Below are positions 1-9,188 of a DNA stretch of 64,000 bases, in pieces (positions within the stretch are counted from its first letter, which is position 1; every line of letters starts with the position of its first letter). Below the pieces are notes generated by a model, which worked only from the letters and a program-made list of their open reading frames with translations, was not told the DNA's origin and ran no database searches. Where the stretch lies: NCBI GenBank assembly GCA_902567785.1, contig CACFOR010000001.1, positions 62,001-126,000 on the forward strand. The letters are read 5' to 3'. The DNA comes from an uncultured Pelagibacteraceae bacterium (lineage in GTDB: Bacteria; Pseudomonadota; Alphaproteobacteria; Pelagibacterales; Pelagibacteraceae). Both the position numbers and the translations under genes were made by a program.

Positions 1-1124
1 CCATTATATGCAGGTGAATTTCTTCCTTTTTGCATACCTTCAATTATATTTAAATCTTCTTTTTGAACAATTTGCCAAAGTTTTAAATTTTGCTTTCTAA
101 GATTTTTAAACTTTTTTGAAAAAGCTGCTTCATTACCAACATAATATATCTCCATGTGTTCTATAGTTAATTCATGATTAATTGGTTCTAACCAAAAAGC
201 GTAATAATGATCTTTGTGAATAGCTAGCATTACATTTGGAAAAAGAGAAATATATTCTGCAATATTATTTTTTTCTCTTGGCCAGTTAGGGAAAGATGGA
301 AGCTTATTTTTACCTTTTAAACGTGGATTGTAAACAGTAGTTCCTTGACCCGAGAATCTGTTTGGCAGACCTTGGATATGATAATGATCACTAATTTTTG
401 AATAAGAATTTAATCCTGGATGTACCCATGGCAAATGATAACTCTCACAATAATTTTCAATTGCAAACTTCCAATTACATTTTACTTTCAATTGGAAGTA
501 ACCAAAATCTTTTGAGTGCCTGATTAATTTCTGGTCTTTTTCTGGCCAGAATTTTGACCAACGATCTTTTAAAGGTTTGATATATTTGTCAAATGTGATT
601 TCATTGTTAGAAATATTAACCATAATTAAATCTAGCCAAATATAAGAGCGAACTTCTTTAAGATTATTTAATGACTTATTAAAATTTTTTAATTCATGCT
701 TGTTCATTCCTCCTAGATGTGGGGTGGATACAAGTTTACCATCCAGATTATATGACCATGAATGGTAGGGACATCGTAATACATTTTTTAACTTACATTT
801 TTTTTGTAGAATTTTATAGCCTCTATGACTACAAACATTGTGATATACTTTAATTTTATTTTTATTAGTTCTTAATAAAATTAATGGTATCCCAAGTAGA
901 TCAAAAGGTTTTACATCACCAGGGTTAGGTATGGAACTTGCCACACCAACCACCACCCATTTTTCTTCAAATATTTTTTTTCTTTCTATTTTTGTATATT
1001 CTTGATTGTTGTAACATTCATTAGGCAAGCCATGAGCTTTTTCAATTGATTTATTTACAATATCTAGCTTTTTTTTGTCTATTATTTTATAAATATTTTG
1101 ATGGCCGTTAAGCTTATACTTCAT
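1..1124 (-). CDS. Rieske-type ring-hydroxylating oxygenase alpha subunit (3' end outside window)
   Basis: This reading frame is absent from the ORF track because it runs off the left edge; I translated it by eye from the ATG at 1124. About 374 codons are visible. The N-terminal third carries a Rieske [2Fe-2S] motif (CSHRG, then CPYHSWSY). The middle has the mononuclear-iron motif ENYCESYHLPWVH, and the end has EDLNIIEGMQKG, which places the third iron ligand (Asp). This fits the family of glycine betaine demethylase GbcA, choline monooxygenase and aromatic-ring dioxygenases. Its neighbours handle betaine-derived methyl groups, so an N-demethylating role is plausible, but the substrate is inferred from context only. 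Only a few C-terminal residues are probably missing. Confidence 0.85.
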   Translation of the reverse strand, partial: MKYKLNGHQNIYKIIDKKKLDIVNKSIEKAHGLPNECYNNQEYTKIERKKIFEEKWVVVGVASSIPNPGDVKPFDLLGIPLILLRTNKNKIKVYHNVCSHRGYKILQKKCKLKNVLRCPYHSWSYNLDGKLVSTPHLGGMNKHELKNFNKSLNNLKEVRSYIWLDLIMVNISNNEITFDKYIKPLKDRWSKFWPEKDQKLIRHSKDFGYFQLKVKCNWKFAIENYCESYHLPWVHPGLNSYSKISDHYHIQGLPNRFSGQGTTVYNPRLKGKNKLPSFPNWPREKNNIAEYISLFPNVMLAIHKDHYYAFWLEPINHELTIEHMEIYYVGNEAAFSKKFKNLRKQNLKLWQIVQKEDLNIIEGMQKGRNSPAYN

Positions 1125-1199: not shown

Positions 1200-2264
1200 T
1201 TAGGCTTTGTCCTGATAGTCCTTTTGATGATTTGGAATATTTTTTCCTGTCCCAAACAACATATGATTAGTCATGTCTTCCCTGTATTTACTAGATGGCA
1301 CTGTTAATCCAACAGCTTCTGCTACTTGTCTAATTAACATTGGATTTGCTAAACAACATACCCCAAGATAATTTATACCAAGTTCAAAAGCTTCCTTTGC
1401 AAATTTACCAATCTCATATCTATTGCATTGCATAGGATCTAGGGCTGTAGGGAATGCCGTCTTGTAAGGACTATGGCATGTACAACCGTTATTATCTGGC
1501 AAATTAAAAAACGTAGGATGTTCTTCTGTAGTTCTTAGGTTAATAGGTAAGGCCGCTACATGACACTTTAAAGCTTTTCTTATTTCTTTTATATAAGGCA
1601 TCATTGTAGCTGGACCTCTAAAACAGTTCATTCCTACTACATCTCCTCCGCGTTGTTCTAGTTCTTTACAAGTATCTACTATTGAAACACCATCTCTCAT
1701 TATGTTTTGAGCCATGGGTGCAATAGTAATAACACATGGCAGACCAGTTTTTTTCATGACTTTTAAAGCTGTGTAAGCTTCTTCAGCGTAATAAAAAGTC
1801 TCTCCGATCAACATATCCGCTCCCTCATCAACAGCCCAACCAACCATTTCTGAAAACATTTTTTCAACTTCTTTATTTTTTGTTTTATCTTTATCATTCC
1901 AAATATTTGAATTAGAAATGTTTCCAGCCATAAGATTGGGTTCTTTTCCAATTGGATTATCTGCAACTTTTTTAGCAATTTTTAAAGCTGCTCTGTTAAG
2001 AGGTTCTAATAGTTCTTCCTTACCAATAACTTTCATCTTCTCTCGATGACCATTATACGTAAATGCTTGAACTATATCTGAGCCAGAATGTTGGAAATCT
2101 CTGTGAAGATTTTCTAAGGCTTCGGGATGTTCTAAAGAAACCATAGGAACGAATTCCCCTGATCTCATATAACCTCTTCTTTCTATTTCAAAAAGAAAAC
2201 CCTCAGCACAAATCACAGGTCCTGAATTTAATCTTTCAATTAAATTTCTTTTACTTTTAGTCAT
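1200..2264 (-). CDS. bhmt: Betaine-homocysteine S-methyltransferase
   Basis: This 354-residue protein belongs to the zinc-dependent homocysteine S-methyltransferase family. It should move a methyl group from glycine betaine to homocysteine, giving methionine and dimethylglycine. The three zinc cysteines are visible: C214 in GMNCFRG and the pair C303-C304 in GVCCLANP. The length and the opening AEGFLFEIERRGY fit BHMT better than the cobalamin enzyme MetH. The start is set by a strong ribosome binding site (AAGGAGAG, 5 bases before ATG) that lies inside a SAM-V riboswitch. The dimethylglycine product is the substrate of the dehydrogenase at 6756. BHMT use as the route to methionine is known for SAR11. 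Confidence 0.92.
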   Translation of the reverse strand: MTKSKRNLIERLNSGPVICAEGFLFEIERRGYMRSGEFVPMVSLEHPEALENLHRDFQHSGSDIVQAFTYNGHREKMKVIGKEELLEPLNRAALKIAKKVADNPIGKEPNLMAGNISNSNIWNDKDKTKNKEVEKMFSEMVGWAVDEGADMLIGETFYYAEEAYTALKVMKKTGLPCVITIAPMAQNIMRDGVSIVDTCKELEQRGGDVVGMNCFRGPATMMPYIKEIRKALKCHVAALPINLRTTEEHPTFFNLPDNNGCTCHSPYKTAFPTALDPMQCNRYEIGKFAKEAFELGINYLGVCCLANPMLIRQVAEAVGLTVPSSKYREDMTNHMLFGTGKNIPNHQKDYQDKA

Positions 2265-2270
2265 TTTGCT

Positions 2271-2325
2271 CTCCTTTTTAGTGCTTTGGCGAATGCCAGG
2301 TGCACAATTTGGTTAAATACCTGGT
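2271..2325 (-). promoter_or_regulatory. SAM-V riboswitch aptamer covering the bhmt ribosome binding site
   Basis: Read on the minus strand, a perfect 6-bp stem CCAGGU/ACCUGG closes a loop with AUUUAACC and GUGC. The loop GUGC can pair with GCAC downstream to form a pseudoknot, followed by ACUAAAAAGGAG. The core resembles SAM-II (UUUAACC ... CUAAAAAGG), which is the hallmark of SAM-V. The Shine-Dalgarno lies in the 3' pseudoknot strand, so SAM binding should block translation of bhmt. SAM-V is known from Pelagibacter; the pairing here was read by eye. Confidence 0.8.
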
Positions 2326-2346
2326 TTTAAATTGAAATAGATTTCC

Positions 2347-2376
2347 AAAAAAAAACCACCGGCTAAAGCGGTGGCC
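2347..2376 (-). terminator. Riboswitch-controlled intrinsic terminator in the bhmt leader
   Basis: On the minus strand, CCACCG - CUUUAGC - CGGUGG forms a GC-rich hairpin followed directly by a run of nine U. The loop CUUUAGC is the exact complement of GCUAAAG in the 3' strand of the upstream SAM-II aptamer. Pairing of those two segments would be an antiterminator, so SAM binding upstream should favour termination. Confidence 0.85.
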
Positions 2377-2384
2377 TTAAGAGT

Positions 2385-2438
2385 GTCGCTTTAGCTGGAT
2401 TTTTTAAGCGCCCGCAATCTGATTCAAATCAGCGCTAA
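2385..2438 (-). promoter_or_regulatory. SAM-II riboswitch aptamer
   Basis: The minus strand reads AGCGCUGAUUUG..., then GCGGGCGCUUAAAAAAUCC and AGCUAAAG. This matches the SAM-II pattern: P1 stem GCGC/GCGC, the GAUUU loop, an A-rich connector and a 3' GCUAAA strand forming the H-type pseudoknot. It lies just upstream of an intrinsic terminator that its 3' strand can disrupt, so it probably controls transcription. A tandem SAM-II/SAM-V arrangement has been described for SAR11 bhmt leaders. Confidence 0.85.
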
Positions 2439-2444
2439 GGGTTA

Positions 2445-2473
2445 ATTTAACCACCTCATTAAATCTTTGTCAA
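2445..2473 (-). promoter_or_regulatory. Sigma-70-like promoter of bhmt
   Basis: On the minus strand TTGACA and TTAAAT are separated by exactly 17 bases. The predicted transcription start, 6-7 bases beyond the -10 box, falls only 1-3 bases before the first base of the SAM-II P1 stem. The aptamer would then sit at the extreme 5' end of the RNA. Confidence 0.65.
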
Positions 2474-2479
2474 TTGAAA

Positions 2480-2500
2480 ATCCTGGACATCCCCCAGGAT
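2480..2500. repeat. Inverted repeat between bhmt promoter and metF-like gene
   Basis: ATCCTGG and CCAGGAT form a perfect 7-bp inverted repeat around a 7-base centre. It lies upstream of the bhmt -35 box and about 22 bases before the metF-like start codon. It could be an operator shared by the divergent genes or a leader hairpin; no T-run follows on the plus strand. Confidence 0.4.
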
Positions 2501-2522
2501 CCACTGATATATCCCGAAGATT

Positions 2523-3251
2523 ATGAATTTTTCTATAGAGATCACAATAAAAACAGACCTATTAAATTTGCCTAAAATTAAAGATGTTTATATTACTATG
2601 TTGCCGGGACATGACTATAAAGATGTTGTTAAAAAGGCCTCGGAATTAGTTAAAGCTGGTTTTAATCCCGTTCCTCATTTTCCTGCTCGTTCAATAAAGG
2701 ATAAATCTGATTTAAAAGACTATGTACTTAAATGTAAGGATGAGGGAGTTAATCAGGCACTTGTGATTGGGGGTAGTACGCAACCCATTGGAGATTTTCA
2801 TTGTTCATTACAATTATTAGAGACAGGACTATTTGATGGTTTTAAGATAGGAATTGCTGGACATCCAGACGGGTCCCCTGATATATCCGACAAAGATTTG
2901 GAAAAAGCTATGATTGATAAAAAACCTTTTGCAGACTATATCGTAACGCAATGGTTATTAGATTCAGATTCTATAACTAAGTTTATTTCTAAACAATCTT
3001 TACCAGTTCACGTGGGAATTACTGGGCCCTTAAATATAACCAGCTTATTAAAGTTTGCAAATATAGTAGGGGCAAAAAATTCTTTAAATTTTCTTAAATC
3101 TAATGTCACTAAAGCTGTGGATTTATTAAAACCAAGAGATCCAAATGATATTATTCAAAAACTCAAAGAATCGACAGAGAATTTTCATATCTATACTTTT
3201 GGAGGTCTAAAAGAAACTAACAAATGGTTAATGGAGAATAATTATGCCTAA
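2523..3251 (+). CDS. Methylenetetrahydrofolate reductase-like protein (MetF family)
   Basis: The 242-residue product fits a short MetF-type TIM barrel. It opens with SIEIT as in MetF, then has PHFPARSI, VIGGSTQPIGDF (the substrate/flavin strand region), IAGHPDGSP and a C-terminal FGGLKET. Bacterial MetF is usually near 290 residues, so this is a compact, divergent member. MetF interconverts 5-methyl- and 5,10-methylene-tetrahydrofolate with FAD. The next gene, a THF-dependent methyltransferase-like protein, begins inside this one (8-bp overlap), so the two are probably translated together. The likely role is oxidising methyl-THF made by that partner, as the MetF beside LigM does in sphingomonads; this direction is inferred. 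Confidence 0.78.
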   Translation: MNFSIEITIKTDLLNLPKIKDVYITMLPGHDYKDVVKKASELVKAGFNPVPHFPARSIKDKSDLKDYVLKCKDEGVNQALVIGGSTQPIGDFHCSLQLLETGLFDGFKIGIAGHPDGSPDISDKDLEKAMIDKKPFADYIVTQWLLDSDSITKFISKQSLPVHVGITGPLNITSLLKFANIVGAKNSLNFLKSNVTKAVDLLKPRDPNDIIQKLKESTENFHIYTFGGLKETNKWLMENNYA

Positions 3252-4668
3252 AAAGAGAAAAGCTAAAAAGAAAAAAGTTAAAAAAATTAAATCTGTTTCA
3301 TTTAAACCTGAAAAGATTAATTATGATAAAGTTAAGCACACTACATCTGTCGATCAATCAGATAGACATGTGCCCTATAATTTAAGACAAAGCGGTCCAA
3401 CAAAAGTTGAAATGTTAATTTCAACAAGAGTACGCAAATCACCTTATTGGCACCTTTCGATGAAAGCTGGATGCTGGAGAGCTACTGTTTATAATCGCGT
3501 TTATCATCCAAGAGGCTACGTAAGACCTGAAAAAGGTGGAGCAATGGTCGAGTATGCGGCAATTAAAAACCACGTAACAATGTGGAATGTTGCTGTGGAA
3601 AGGCAAATTCGTGTTAAAGGACCTGACGCTGAAAAATTTACAGATTATGTAATAACACGTGATGCGACTAAAATTTCAACAATGAGAGGTCGTTATGTTA
3701 TTCTTTGCAATAATAAGGGCGGAGTATTAAACGACCCAGTTTTATTAAGAGTAGCTGACGATGAGTTTTGGTTTAGTTTATCCGATTCTGATATTGGAAT
3801 GTACTTACAAGGTGTTAATGCTGATAAAAGATTCAATGTAGAAATAGATGAAATAGATGCATGTCCAGTACAAATACAAGGACCTAAATCAAAAGCATTA
3901 ATGAACGATTTAATTGGAGATCAAGTTGATTTAGATAATATGCCTTTTTATGGTTTAGCAGAAGCTAAAGTAGGAGGTAGAAGCTGCGTGATTTCTCAAT
4001 CAGGATTTTCAGGTGAAGCTGGATATGAAATTTATCTTCGTAATGCTACTTTATATGCAGAAGACATGTGGAATGCTGTTCTAAAAGCTGGAAAAAAACA
4101 TAAGTTAATGGTTATTGCTCCCGCGCACCATAGAAGAATCCAAGCAGGAATTTTGTCTTGGGGTCAAGATATGGATAATGAACACAATCCTTTTCAGTGT
4201 AACTTGGGTTATCAAGTTTCTCTGTCTGGTAAAGGTGAGTGGAATAAAAAAACAGATTATGTGGGAAAAGAAGCTTTAGAAAAAATGAAAGAGGAAATTA
4301 AACAAGGGAAAAATCCTTATAAACTTCAACTCGTAGGATTGGAACTAGGAGGAAAACCAATAGAAGAATATGCGCCAGACTTTTGGTTAATTTCTGATGC
4401 TAAAGGAGGCAAGCCAATAGGTTATATTACTTCTCCTTGGTATCACCCAGAAAAGAAAAAAAATATTGCAATGGGATATGTTCCATACGAAGGCCATATA
4501 AGTGCTAAAGGTTTTCCAATTGGAAATTTTGGTAAAAAATACAAAGTTCATTTACCAAAGAAATATTCTAAAAAACCAGTTAATGCTGTAGTTGTACCTA
4601 TACCTTTCACGCAGTCATTCAATGCAAATACTCGTGAAGCTGAGGTGTTGGCTACTTTAAATAAATAG
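3244..4668 (+). CDS. GcvT-family THF-dependent methyltransferase, LigM/DmdA-like
   Basis: This 474-residue protein belongs to the aminomethyltransferase (GcvT) superfamily. The folate-binding fold starts near residue 60 (RVRKSPYWHLSMKAGC). IQGPKSKALM and SGFSGEAGYEIYLR are typical GcvT elements, and the C-terminal barrel ends in AVVVPIPFTQSF. The length and the ending resemble vanillate demethylase LigM, while the opening of the fold resembles the DMSP demethylase DmdA. The first ~58 residues are an extra tail, with 12 lysines in the first 24. The gene overlaps the metF-like gene by 8 bp. It probably strips a methyl group from an unidentified substrate onto THF; calling it DmdA would go beyond the evidence. 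Confidence 0.75.
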   Translation: MPKKRKAKKKKVKKIKSVSFKPEKINYDKVKHTTSVDQSDRHVPYNLRQSGPTKVEMLISTRVRKSPYWHLSMKAGCWRATVYNRVYHPRGYVRPEKGGAMVEYAAIKNHVTMWNVAVERQIRVKGPDAEKFTDYVITRDATKISTMRGRYVILCNNKGGVLNDPVLLRVADDEFWFSLSDSDIGMYLQGVNADKRFNVEIDEIDACPVQIQGPKSKALMNDLIGDQVDLDNMPFYGLAEAKVGGRSCVISQSGFSGEAGYEIYLRNATLYAEDMWNAVLKAGKKHKLMVIAPAHHRRIQAGILSWGQDMDNEHNPFQCNLGYQVSLSGKGEWNKKTDYVGKEALEKMKEEIKQGKNPYKLQLVGLELGGKPIEEYAPDFWLISDAKGGKPIGYITSPWYHPEKKKNIAMGYVPYEGHISAKGFPIGNFGKKYKVHLPKKYSKKPVNAVVVPIPFTQSFNANTREAEVLATLNK

Positions 4669-6699: not shown

Positions 6700-6755
6700 T
6701 TAAATCTAACTTGACCTATCATAAGGTTATATTTAGAAATTTACCTTATTTATTT

Positions 6756-9188
6756 ATGAAATCAAAAGCTAAAGTTGTCGTAGTAGGTGGTGGTGCAGTA
6801 GGAGTGAGCATGCTTTACCATCTAGCAAAAAAGGGGTGGTCAGATGTTGTTTTGGTTGAAAGGAAAGAACTAACCTCTGGATCAACTTGGCATGCAGCTG
6901 GTTTATTACCACTTTTTAATATGAGTTATTCTGTAGGTCAATTGCATAAATATGCAGTAAATCTTTATAAAACTTTAGAAAAGGAAACGGGGAAAAATGT
7001 AGGCTTTAGCGTAGTATCAAATATTAGATTAGCTAGCACAAAAGATAGAATGGATGAATATCATCAATATGCAGGAGTGGCACAAACAATTGGAGTTGAT
7101 GTAAAATTTTTAAAACCAAAACAAGTAAAAGAAATTTGGCCTTTAATTAATACGGAAGGATTAATTGGAGCAATACAACATCCTGAAGACGGATATATTC
7201 AACCAGCAGATTTAACGCAAGCTTTAGCAACGGGTGCCAGAAATAAAGGAGCAGAAATTTATAGAAACACAGCTGTAGTAGGAATTAAACAAACAAAAAA
7301 TGGATGGGTTGTAGAAACTGATAAAGGAACAATCGAATGTGAACATGTTGTTTCTTGTTCAGGAAATTTTGCAAGGCAAACTGGGGAAATGGTCGGCTTA
7401 GATATTCCAGTCATACCTGTTGAACATCAATACATAGTTACCGAACCTCATCCGGAAATACAAAAAAGAAAAAAAGAAGGTCTTCCAGAAATGGGAGTTC
7501 TAAGAGATAGTGATAGTCGTTGGTATATGAGAGAGGAAGCGGGAGGATTAATATTAGGCCCTTATGAAGACGGAGCACCTTGTTGCTATGTAGATGGTCC
7601 AGCAAAAGATTCAGAGTATGAATTATTTCAAGAAGATTTAGAAAGACTTGGTCCTCACATTGAGGGAGCAATTCATCGTGTCCCTGCTTTTGGAGAGGTT
7701 GGTGTTAAAAAAGTTTATAATGGAGCAATTTGTTACACCCCAGATGGAAACCCAATTGTAGGTCCTGCTTGGGGACTAAAAAACTTTTGGATTAATGAAG
7801 GTCATAGCTTTGGGATTACAGCAGCGGGTGGAGCAGGCTGGCAACTTGCTGAGTGGATTATAGATGGAGAGCCAACTATTGATATGCTTGGTGTAGAGCC
7901 GAGAAGATATGGTGATTATGCAACTAAATCATATTTAAAAGAAAAAAATGAAGAGGCTTACCGTAATGTATTTATCATTCATTATCCCGATGAGGAAAGA
8001 TCTGCAGGAAGACCCTTAAGGACGGCTCCTTGTTATGAAAGGATGAAAAATTTAGGTGCTGTATTTGGTCAAAAATTTGGATGGGAAAGACCAAATTTTT
8101 TTGCAACAGAAGGAATGGAACAAAAGGACGATTGGTCATTTAGAAGATCAAAATGGTTTAAAGCAATAGAAAAAGAATGCAAAAATGTTAAAGAAAATGT
8201 TGGTCTTTTGGATATGACAGCATTTGGAAAATGTAGAATTAAAGGACCAAAAGCGGAATCATTTTTAGATTATTTAGTTGCTAACAAACTTCCAAAAAAA
8301 ATTGGTAGAATTAATTTATGTCATGCTCTTAACACAAAAGGCGGAGTTCATTCAGAATTTACTATTATGAGAGAATCTGAAGACAGTTTCTACTTAGTAT
8401 CCGCAGGAGCATTTCAAAGATTAGACCATGATTGGATACTTAAATGGATGCCAAAAGACGGATCAGTTCAGTTTGAAAATTTAACAAATAGTATTGGAGT
8501 ATTGGTTGTTTCTGGACCCAAAGCAAGAGAGTTAATGAAAAGAGTTTCAAAAGATGATTTTTCAAATGAAAATTTTAAATGGCTGAGTTCAAAAAAAATT
8601 AATGTGGGCTATGCACCAGTTAACGCAATGAGAGTAAACTTTGTAGGAGAATTAGGTTGGGAACTTCATCATCCTATGGAATATCAAAATCATATATTTG
8701 ACAAATTAATGGAAGCTGGAAAAAATTTAGGTTTAAAACCATATGGAATTAGAGCCATGAATAGTTTAAGGGTTGAAAAATCTTATAAATTAGTAGGAAC
8801 AGAATTATCTATTGAATATTCACCTTATGAGTCTGGTTTAGATAGATTTATACACCCCAACAAAGGTAATTTTATTGGGCTAGAAGCTCTTAATAAATGG
8901 AGAGAAAAAGGTTTTCAAAATAAGTTAGTAACACTTGAAGTACATAATATAGATGATGCCGATGTTTTAGGAAACAATCCCATTTACCAAAACGATAAAG
9001 TTGTTGGCAGAGCTACAGGCGGTGATTTTGGTTTTAGACTAAATAAATCAATAGCTTTAGGGATGGTTAAACCAGAACTTGCGACAACAGGTCAAAAATT
9101 AAAAATTGATATTTTGGGCAAAATGCACGAGGTTACAATTTTGGATGAAAGTCCTTATGACCCGGAAAATAAATTATTAAGAGCATAA
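6756..9188 (+). CDS. Dimethylglycine/sarcosine dehydrogenase, FAD- and folate-dependent
   Basis: The 810-residue flavoprotein has two modules. An N-terminal DAO-type oxidoreductase carries the dinucleotide fold VVVVGGGAVGV and the motif STWHAAG, whose His is the covalent FAD site in mammalian DMGDH and SARDH. A C-terminal GcvT-type folate domain starts near ALNTKGGVHSEFTI. It should oxidatively demethylate dimethylglycine or sarcosine and hand the one-carbon unit to THF. I use the ATG at 6756; the track begins at a TTG at 6711 whose extra 15 residues are not part of the fold. That TTGACC may instead be part of a promoter. etfB starts at the next base after the stop, so ETF is the probable electron acceptor. 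Dimethylglycine versus sarcosine cannot be decided by eye. Confidence 0.88.
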   Translation: MKSKAKVVVVGGGAVGVSMLYHLAKKGWSDVVLVERKELTSGSTWHAAGLLPLFNMSYSVGQLHKYAVNLYKTLEKETGKNVGFSVVSNIRLASTKDRMDEYHQYAGVAQTIGVDVKFLKPKQVKEIWPLINTEGLIGAIQHPEDGYIQPADLTQALATGARNKGAEIYRNTAVVGIKQTKNGWVVETDKGTIECEHVVSCSGNFARQTGEMVGLDIPVIPVEHQYIVTEPHPEIQKRKKEGLPEMGVLRDSDSRWYMREEAGGLILGPYEDGAPCCYVDGPAKDSEYELFQEDLERLGPHIEGAIHRVPAFGEVGVKKVYNGAICYTPDGNPIVGPAWGLKNFWINEGHSFGITAAGGAGWQLAEWIIDGEPTIDMLGVEPRRYGDYATKSYLKEKNEEAYRNVFIIHYPDEERSAGRPLRTAPCYERMKNLGAVFGQKFGWERPNFFATEGMEQKDDWSFRRSKWFKAIEKECKNVKENVGLLDMTAFGKCRIKGPKAESFLDYLVANKLPKKIGRINLCHALNTKGGVHSEFTIMRESEDSFYLVSAGAFQRLDHDWILKWMPKDGSVQFENLTNSIGVLVVSGPKARELMKRVSKDDFSNENFKWLSSKKINVGYAPVNAMRVNFVGELGWELHHPMEYQNHIFDKLMEAGKNLGLKPYGIRAMNSLRVEKSYKLVGTELSIEYSPYESGLDRFIHPNKGNFIGLEALNKWREKGFQNKLVTLEVHNIDDADVLGNNPIYQNDKVVGRATGGDFGFRLNKSIALGMVKPELATTGQKLKIDILGKMHEVTILDESPYDPENKLLRA

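Follow-up and report, generated by a model that had tools for sequence, protein, structure and literature searches.

A short MetF-like gene and the GcvT/DmdA-family methyltransferase gene (AMT) that overlaps it in SAR11 bacteria probably form a C1-recovery module for glycine betaine (GB), in which AMT would act as a corrinoid-free, THF-dependent GB demethylase and MetF would then oxidise the methyl group. The AMT proteins form a clade of their own, the two genes come and go together in SAR11, and outside SAR11 the recurring neighbours of AMT are genes for the breakdown of GB.

The sequence-only reading of this DNA had taken the pair for a possibly undescribed module; in this it was mistaken, since this kind of pair is recorded by Sun et al. 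2011 (PMC3160333), and a module of LigM with the MetF type S6MTHFR is also published (PMC12585457). Sun et al. reported metF (SAR11_1264) beside SAR11_1265 in HTCC1062 and noted corresponding genes in two further genomes. They described SAR11_1265 as an aminomethyltransferase of the GcvT kind, 'closely related' to dmdA, and left its substrate open, guessing at the second methyl of DMSP, carried by methylmercaptopropionate (MMPA). Judged from gene kind, gene order and core status, the pair studied here is very probably the same. Their account was without the haloarchaeal and gammaproteobacterial members and the link to dimethylglycine and sarcosine, and the spread of the pair to haloarchaea appears to be unreported. 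Transcripts of SAR11_1264/1265 fall ~5- to 10-fold in stationary phase in HTCC1062, and bhmT rises under sulphur limitation (PMC5069961).

The gene pair and its flanks

The following features were assigned in the window, that is, the whole stretch of 64,000 nucleotides that was analysed.

3..1124, minus strand: GbcA-like Rieske oxygenase alpha subunit, 118.9 bits on the GbcA model (cut-off 670); runs off the window, whole gene at L078:11929-13125
1200..2264, minus strand: betaine-homocysteine methyltransferase (BHMT) gene bhmT, divergent neighbour of metF
2268..2331, minus strand: SAM-V riboswitch of the bhmT leader, at 53.9 bits against a gathering score of 41
2378-2352, minus strand: terminator-like stem from a terminator scan, after the SAM-II-like element and between it and SAM-V
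2371..2445, minus strand: SAM-II (SAM_alpha) riboswitch-like element upstream of SAM-V, 32.5 bits, under the gathering score of 36
2484..2513, plus strand: probable promoter of metF and AMT (TGGACA, 18 nt, TATATC preceded by TG), judged by eye and below the scan threshold
2523..3251, plus strand: MetF-like gene, 242 aa, S6MTHFR-type and SAR11_1264 type (ORF list, Pfam, best solved relative 7xg9)
3244..4668, plus strand: GcvT/DmdA-family THF-dependent methyltransferase (AMT), 474 aa, SAR11_1265 type, proposed GB demethylase (ORF list, Pfam, own clade, residues)
6756..9188, plus strand: dimethylglycine/sarcosine dehydrogenase-like (DMGDH/SARDH) fusion of FAD and GcvT parts, with DAO, FAO_M, GCV_T and GCV_T_C domains (ORF 6711-9188)

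The MetF-like and AMT reading frames have exactly 8 bases in common, as had been noted from the sequence alone. The pair had also been described as lying between BHMT and DMGDH; both flanks are as described, although four small genes separate AMT from the DMGDH/SARDH-like gene, which lies ~2 kb 3' of the pair and is followed by ETF genes. The promoter-like motif ends ~10 bases 5' of the metF start codon, a position that suggests a very short leader. A motif of the form [CT]T[AG]GACA...TATATCCC recurs 5' of metF in the nearest SAR11 loci, with a looser form in more distant loci. The same tandem arrangement of SAM-V and SAM-II is published for the bhmT leader of HTCC1062 (PMC5069961). Outside the window, the same genome (G000:C1) encodes a second GcvT/DmdA-like protein of 396 aa, 37% identical to AMT, between two FAD + GcvT fusions (L074:8086-15107).

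Family placement of the two proteins

AMT belongs to the GCV_T superfamily of folate-binding methyltransferases by its Pfam domains, GCV_T (PF01571, 141 bits) and GCV_T_C (PF08669, 31 bits), and among solved structures DmdA (3tfh, 157 bits) is the closest to it. It scored below the cut-offs of the following family models: 243.8 bits against 410 for the DmdA equivalog model NF009133 (a Haloarcula orthologue likewise fell short, at 244.9), 133.8 against 235.85 for gcvT (TIGR00528), and 33.3 against 580 and 44.6 against 800 for the LigM/DesA models NF047885 and NF047633. Its likeness to LigM is weak (E 4e-4) and confined to a single short stretch. We constructed a maximum likelihood tree that included 29 AMT proteins together with DmdA, paralogues, GcvT and LigM. 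All 29 clustered into one clade (support 100/97), which ranges over 51-97% identity and takes in SAR11, other Alpha- and Gammaproteobacteria, and haloarchaea. The DmdA clade (100/100) and a paralogous group stand beside it; GcvT falls outside, and no member of the tree is as remote as LigM, whose branch has a length of 3.74. A profile built from the bacterial members of the clade only gave members at least 630 bits and all other proteins at most 363, with LigM at 34-39.

The catalytic Asp164 and the folate residues Glu262 and Tyr264 are conserved across the AMT clade. At the position of Trp197 in P. ubique DmdA, 28/29 clade members have Phe255, whereas the DmdA proteins sampled have Trp or Tyr, half of them Tyr; the Trp of DmdA has been named as a DMSP-specific residue (PMC7487153). 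An N-terminal extension, VDQSDRxVPxNLRQSG, marks the AMT clade and is absent from DmdA. AMT is therefore like DmdA in fold family, catalytic Asp and folate residues, and unlike it in clade, in Phe255, in the extension and in its sub-cut-off score. The AlphaFold2 model, built on 20 sequences, had a mean pLDDT of 60, too poor for a fold search or pocket comparison.

Three identities were rejected on these grounds: canonical GcvT, by score and by a tree position outside the GcvT clade; canonical DmdA, by score, separate clade and Phe255; and kinship with LigM, by scores, structure-sequence search, clade profile and tree. The sequence-only reading had seen a resemblance to both DmdA and LigM with a good fit to neither, and had named placement deep inside GcvT or DmdA as one outcome that would speak against it. 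The poor fit to either family and the placement outside the GcvT, DmdA and LigM clades were borne out, and so was the resemblance to DmdA; closeness to LigM as a demethylase found no support, the feature in common with Sphingobium lignivorans SYK-6 being the type of MetF. The tree also contained the GcvT-like paralogue groups AMT2 and AMT3, one of which may be SAR11_1303. Another GcvT-like paralogue, on the Phaeobacter inhibens plasmid pP88_b (L174:6971-11049), has genes for OsmC, enoyl-CoA hydratase and acyl-CoA synthetase downstream, and from its gene content this cluster looks like a different demethylation route.

The MetF-like protein scored 23.1 bits on the Pfam MTHFR model, just below the 24-bit cut-off, and 112 bits (E 1.8e-31) against the solved MTHFR of SYK-6, 7xg9. 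A profile of the AMT-adjacent MetF family also ranked 7xg9 best among solved MTHFRs (264.7 bits; next 61.3). The protein is of the S6MTHFR type and is predicted to oxidise 5-methyl-THF, as has been reported for S6MTHFR of SYK-6, where it is paired with LigM (PMC12585457). One gammaproteobacterial MetF beside AMT (L165:8271-8667, minus strand) matches in two overlapping frames and looks frameshifted or mis-sequenced; two related genomes carry it whole.

Conservation of the pair and its genomic context

A GcvT-like match at E <= 1e-30, mostly at AMT level, was found in 266/297 sampled Pelagibacterales genomes, a count that takes in some genomes having paralogues only. Outside the order we found 16 AMT carriers among 386 sampled genomes of the class (55-80% identity) and four gammaproteobacterial carriers, and haloarchaeal plasmids, from which the haloarchaeal names were taken, carry AMT at 51-57% identity. 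The best 80 matches in a scan of genome contigs were all SAR11. In 80/80 other SAR11 loci read, metF lies directly 5' of AMT; the pairing is thus not due to chance. In a set of SAR11 genomes chosen by AMT presence or absence, MetF occurred in 22/22 AMT-positive and 0/20 AMT-negative genomes, and within one SAR11 genus in 9/9 with AMT and 0/12 without. In SAR11, gain or loss of one gene accompanies that of the other, and the co-conservation that had been named as a check on the pair is strict. MetF and part of AMT (96% identity) also occur on a 4 kb contig with a viral classification (L039, IMGVR_UViG_3300006315_000185), which is probably a misclassified SAR11 fragment, the alternative being a host gene in a phage.

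Outside SAR11, we examined the neighbours of AMT, which include DMGDH/SARDH, soxBDAG, fhs, sdaA and GbdR and, in haloarchaea, a BCCT transporter. A DMGDH/SARDH, soxA/B or GbdR-like gene lies within ~10 kb of AMT in 14 of the 20 non-SAR11 proteobacterial carriers; no GB gene was recognised around AMT in the other six (L062, L063, L064, L072, L073 and L168, of which L168 has just MetF). MetF is absent from the vicinity of AMT in 11/20. The clearest case is that of three gammaproteobacteria of one genus, which have a cluster of AMT-MetF-fhs, GbdR, sdaA and DMGDH; the regulator is GbdR by model NF052371 (498 bits, cut-off 480), and profile searches of these three for MtgB, GbcA, soxA and BHMT gave no matches. 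The haloarchaeal neighbours, read from ORF calls that are mechanical in high-GC regions, vary by species and comprise up to two DMGDH-like genes, glyA, ilvA, fhs, formate dehydrogenase, folate genes and BCCT, with MetF alongside AMT in 4/5 regions read. On the megaplasmids of Halomicrococcus and Haladaptatus (L170, L172), pabB, folD and dihydropteroate synthase adjoin AMT, as if a whole folate-linked pathway had moved together. The neighbouring genes match a route from GB through dimethylglycine, sarcosine, glycine and serine to pyruvate, plus folate-linked C1 oxidation.

The 20 carriers outside SAR11 were set against 60 genomes that lack AMT, each from a different family of the class; the tests of significance count related genomes as independent observations, and shared ancestry inflates the statistics. 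The DMGDH/SARDH family (FAO_M) was present in 20/20 carriers and 19/60 non-carriers (p = 2e-8), and soxA in 17/20 and 22/60. Among genomes with FAO_M, an MtgB-family (PF06253) or GbcA-like (NF058607 at E <= 1e-60) gene was found in 3/20 carriers and 14/19 non-carriers (p = 3e-4), or 3/13 against 14/19 with carriers counted by family (p = 0.01). The exceptions are GbcA-like genes in G578 and G986 and MtgB-family genes in G578 and G527. MTTB-family proteins have several substrates, which makes the MtgB comparison an indirect one. AMT co-occurs with the genes for dimethylglycine and sarcosine oxidation and, in most of its carriers, appears to take the place of the known GB demethylases MtgB and GbcA.

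The first demethylation of GB in SAR11 has been credited to BHMT (PMC3160333, PMC12478193). A BHMT homologue was present in 12/27 SAR11 carriers (absent from 15/27) and in 9/20 non-SAR11 carriers; two AMT non-carriers have BHMT, and the single-contig SAR11 genomes G003 and G005 have AMT, MetF and DMGDH but lack it. BHMT cannot account for this step in the genomes without it, and its gene is repressed at plentiful SAM. We rejected BHMT as the partner of the pair in our main view, given its opposite strand, its own SAM riboswitches and its patchy occurrence; its role is methionine synthesis, outside the module.

Glycine betaine as the proposed substrate

Flavoenzymes demethylate tertiary and secondary amines, such as dimethylglycine and sarcosine, to methylene-THF, but a quaternary ammonium is not a substrate for them, and a redox-neutral transfer to THF, like that of DmdA from an onium donor, therefore fits GB. 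Such a transfer gives methyl-THF, which requires oxidation by MetF. AMT would convert GB and THF to dimethylglycine and 5-methyl-THF, redox-neutrally and without a corrinoid; the S6MTHFR-type MetF would oxidise 5-methyl-THF to 5,10-methylene-THF, feeding FolD, Fhs and formate dehydrogenase; and dimethylglycine would pass to glycine via DMGDH/SARDH and sarcosine oxidase. We infer the substrate, the direction of reaction and the coupling of the pair from what was observed of the sequences, clade, co-conservation, GB-catabolic neighbourhood and co-occurrence. By the established chemistry of the families, a DmdA-like enzyme combined with a methyl-THF-oxidising MetF and dimethylglycine genes fits GB best. 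The sequence-only reading had proposed THF-dependent demethylation with recovery of the methyl group by MetF, which the separate clade and the strict co-conservation in SAR11 support; the compound that it left unknown is indicated by gene context and co-occurrence to be GB.

We weighed four other explanations. AMT might instead demethylate another quaternary-ammonium osmolyte (e.g., choline, carnitine, proline betaine or beta-alanine betaine) to methyl-THF, with the product entering the same neighbourhood. BCCT transporters and GbdR are common to choline, carnitine and GB metabolism, the GbdR model is itself titled choline metabolism regulator, and six carriers show no GB gene in the vicinity of AMT; the demethylated products of other betaines, however, are not substrates of the recurring partners DMGDH and sarcosine oxidase, and we consider this reading unlikely. 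Transfer of the S-methyl of MMPA, or demethylation of DMSP itself, is the guess printed by Sun et al. 2011 for MMPA, and would agree with DmdA as the nearest characterised family and with the degradation of DMSP by SAR11. This appears improbable given the clade, residue and score differences set out above, the two genomes (G986 and G813) that carry AMT without a DmdA above cut-off, and a vicinity of AMT in which no DMSP genes were recognised.

Alternatively, a Rieske oxygenase or BHMT could demethylate GB, leaving AMT as a folate-loading T-protein that assists DMGDH or sarcosine oxidase. A GbcA-like Rieske gene does lie near the pair in 28/80 SAR11 loci, and a Rieske oxygenase near AMT in Haloarcula too, and BHMT is divergent from the pair in the window. 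Yet DMGDH and SoxA have their own GcvT domains and make methylene-THF, so that neither a T-protein nor MetF would be needed; a GbcA match is missing in most non-SAR11 carriers, and BHMT is patchy and SAM-controlled, which together make this role distinctly unlikely. LigM-like O-demethylation of a methoxy-aromatic with recovery of methyl-THF is suggested by the MetF, which is of the type that partners LigM in SYK-6 (PMC12585457), but is highly improbable in view of the remoteness of LigM in both tree and clade profile and of the neighbourhoods of AMT, where no aromatic-degradation genes were recognised.

The proposed GB module would resemble LigM with S6MTHFR in joining a GcvT-fold demethylase to a MetF of the same type that converts methyl-THF to methylene-THF; AMT is only remotely related to LigM, and its expected donor is a quaternary amine rather than a methoxy-aromatic. 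MtgBCD and GbcAB, which are known to start GB breakdown, share with it the predicted step from GB to dimethylglycine and the same downstream genes, but the former depends on a corrinoid protein and the latter on oxygen, whereas AMT is proposed to act as a single enzyme with THF directly. BHMT also converts GB to dimethylglycine, but passes the methyl to homocysteine for methionine. Searches of a mainly open-access body of journal papers turned up no description of a GB demethylase that uses THF and dispenses with a corrinoid. More tentatively, a corrinoid- and oxygen-independent GB:THF methyltransferase, core to most SAR11 and common to gammaproteobacteria and haloarchaea, may be a fourth way of starting GB breakdown, and the main catabolic one in SAR11, the most abundant ocean bacteria, with BHMT serving methionine only.

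GB is an abundant marine osmolyte, and SAR11 are among its main consumers. If AMT performs the first step, a major route escapes surveys restricted to the genes bhmt, mtgB/C and gbcA. The modelled flow of methyl groups and carbon through SAR11 would also change, each GB methyl becoming a C1 unit for energy and not for methionine. In haloarchaea, where dimethylglycine oxidase genes have been noted without a gene for the first step (PMC3102087), AMT would supply that missing step.
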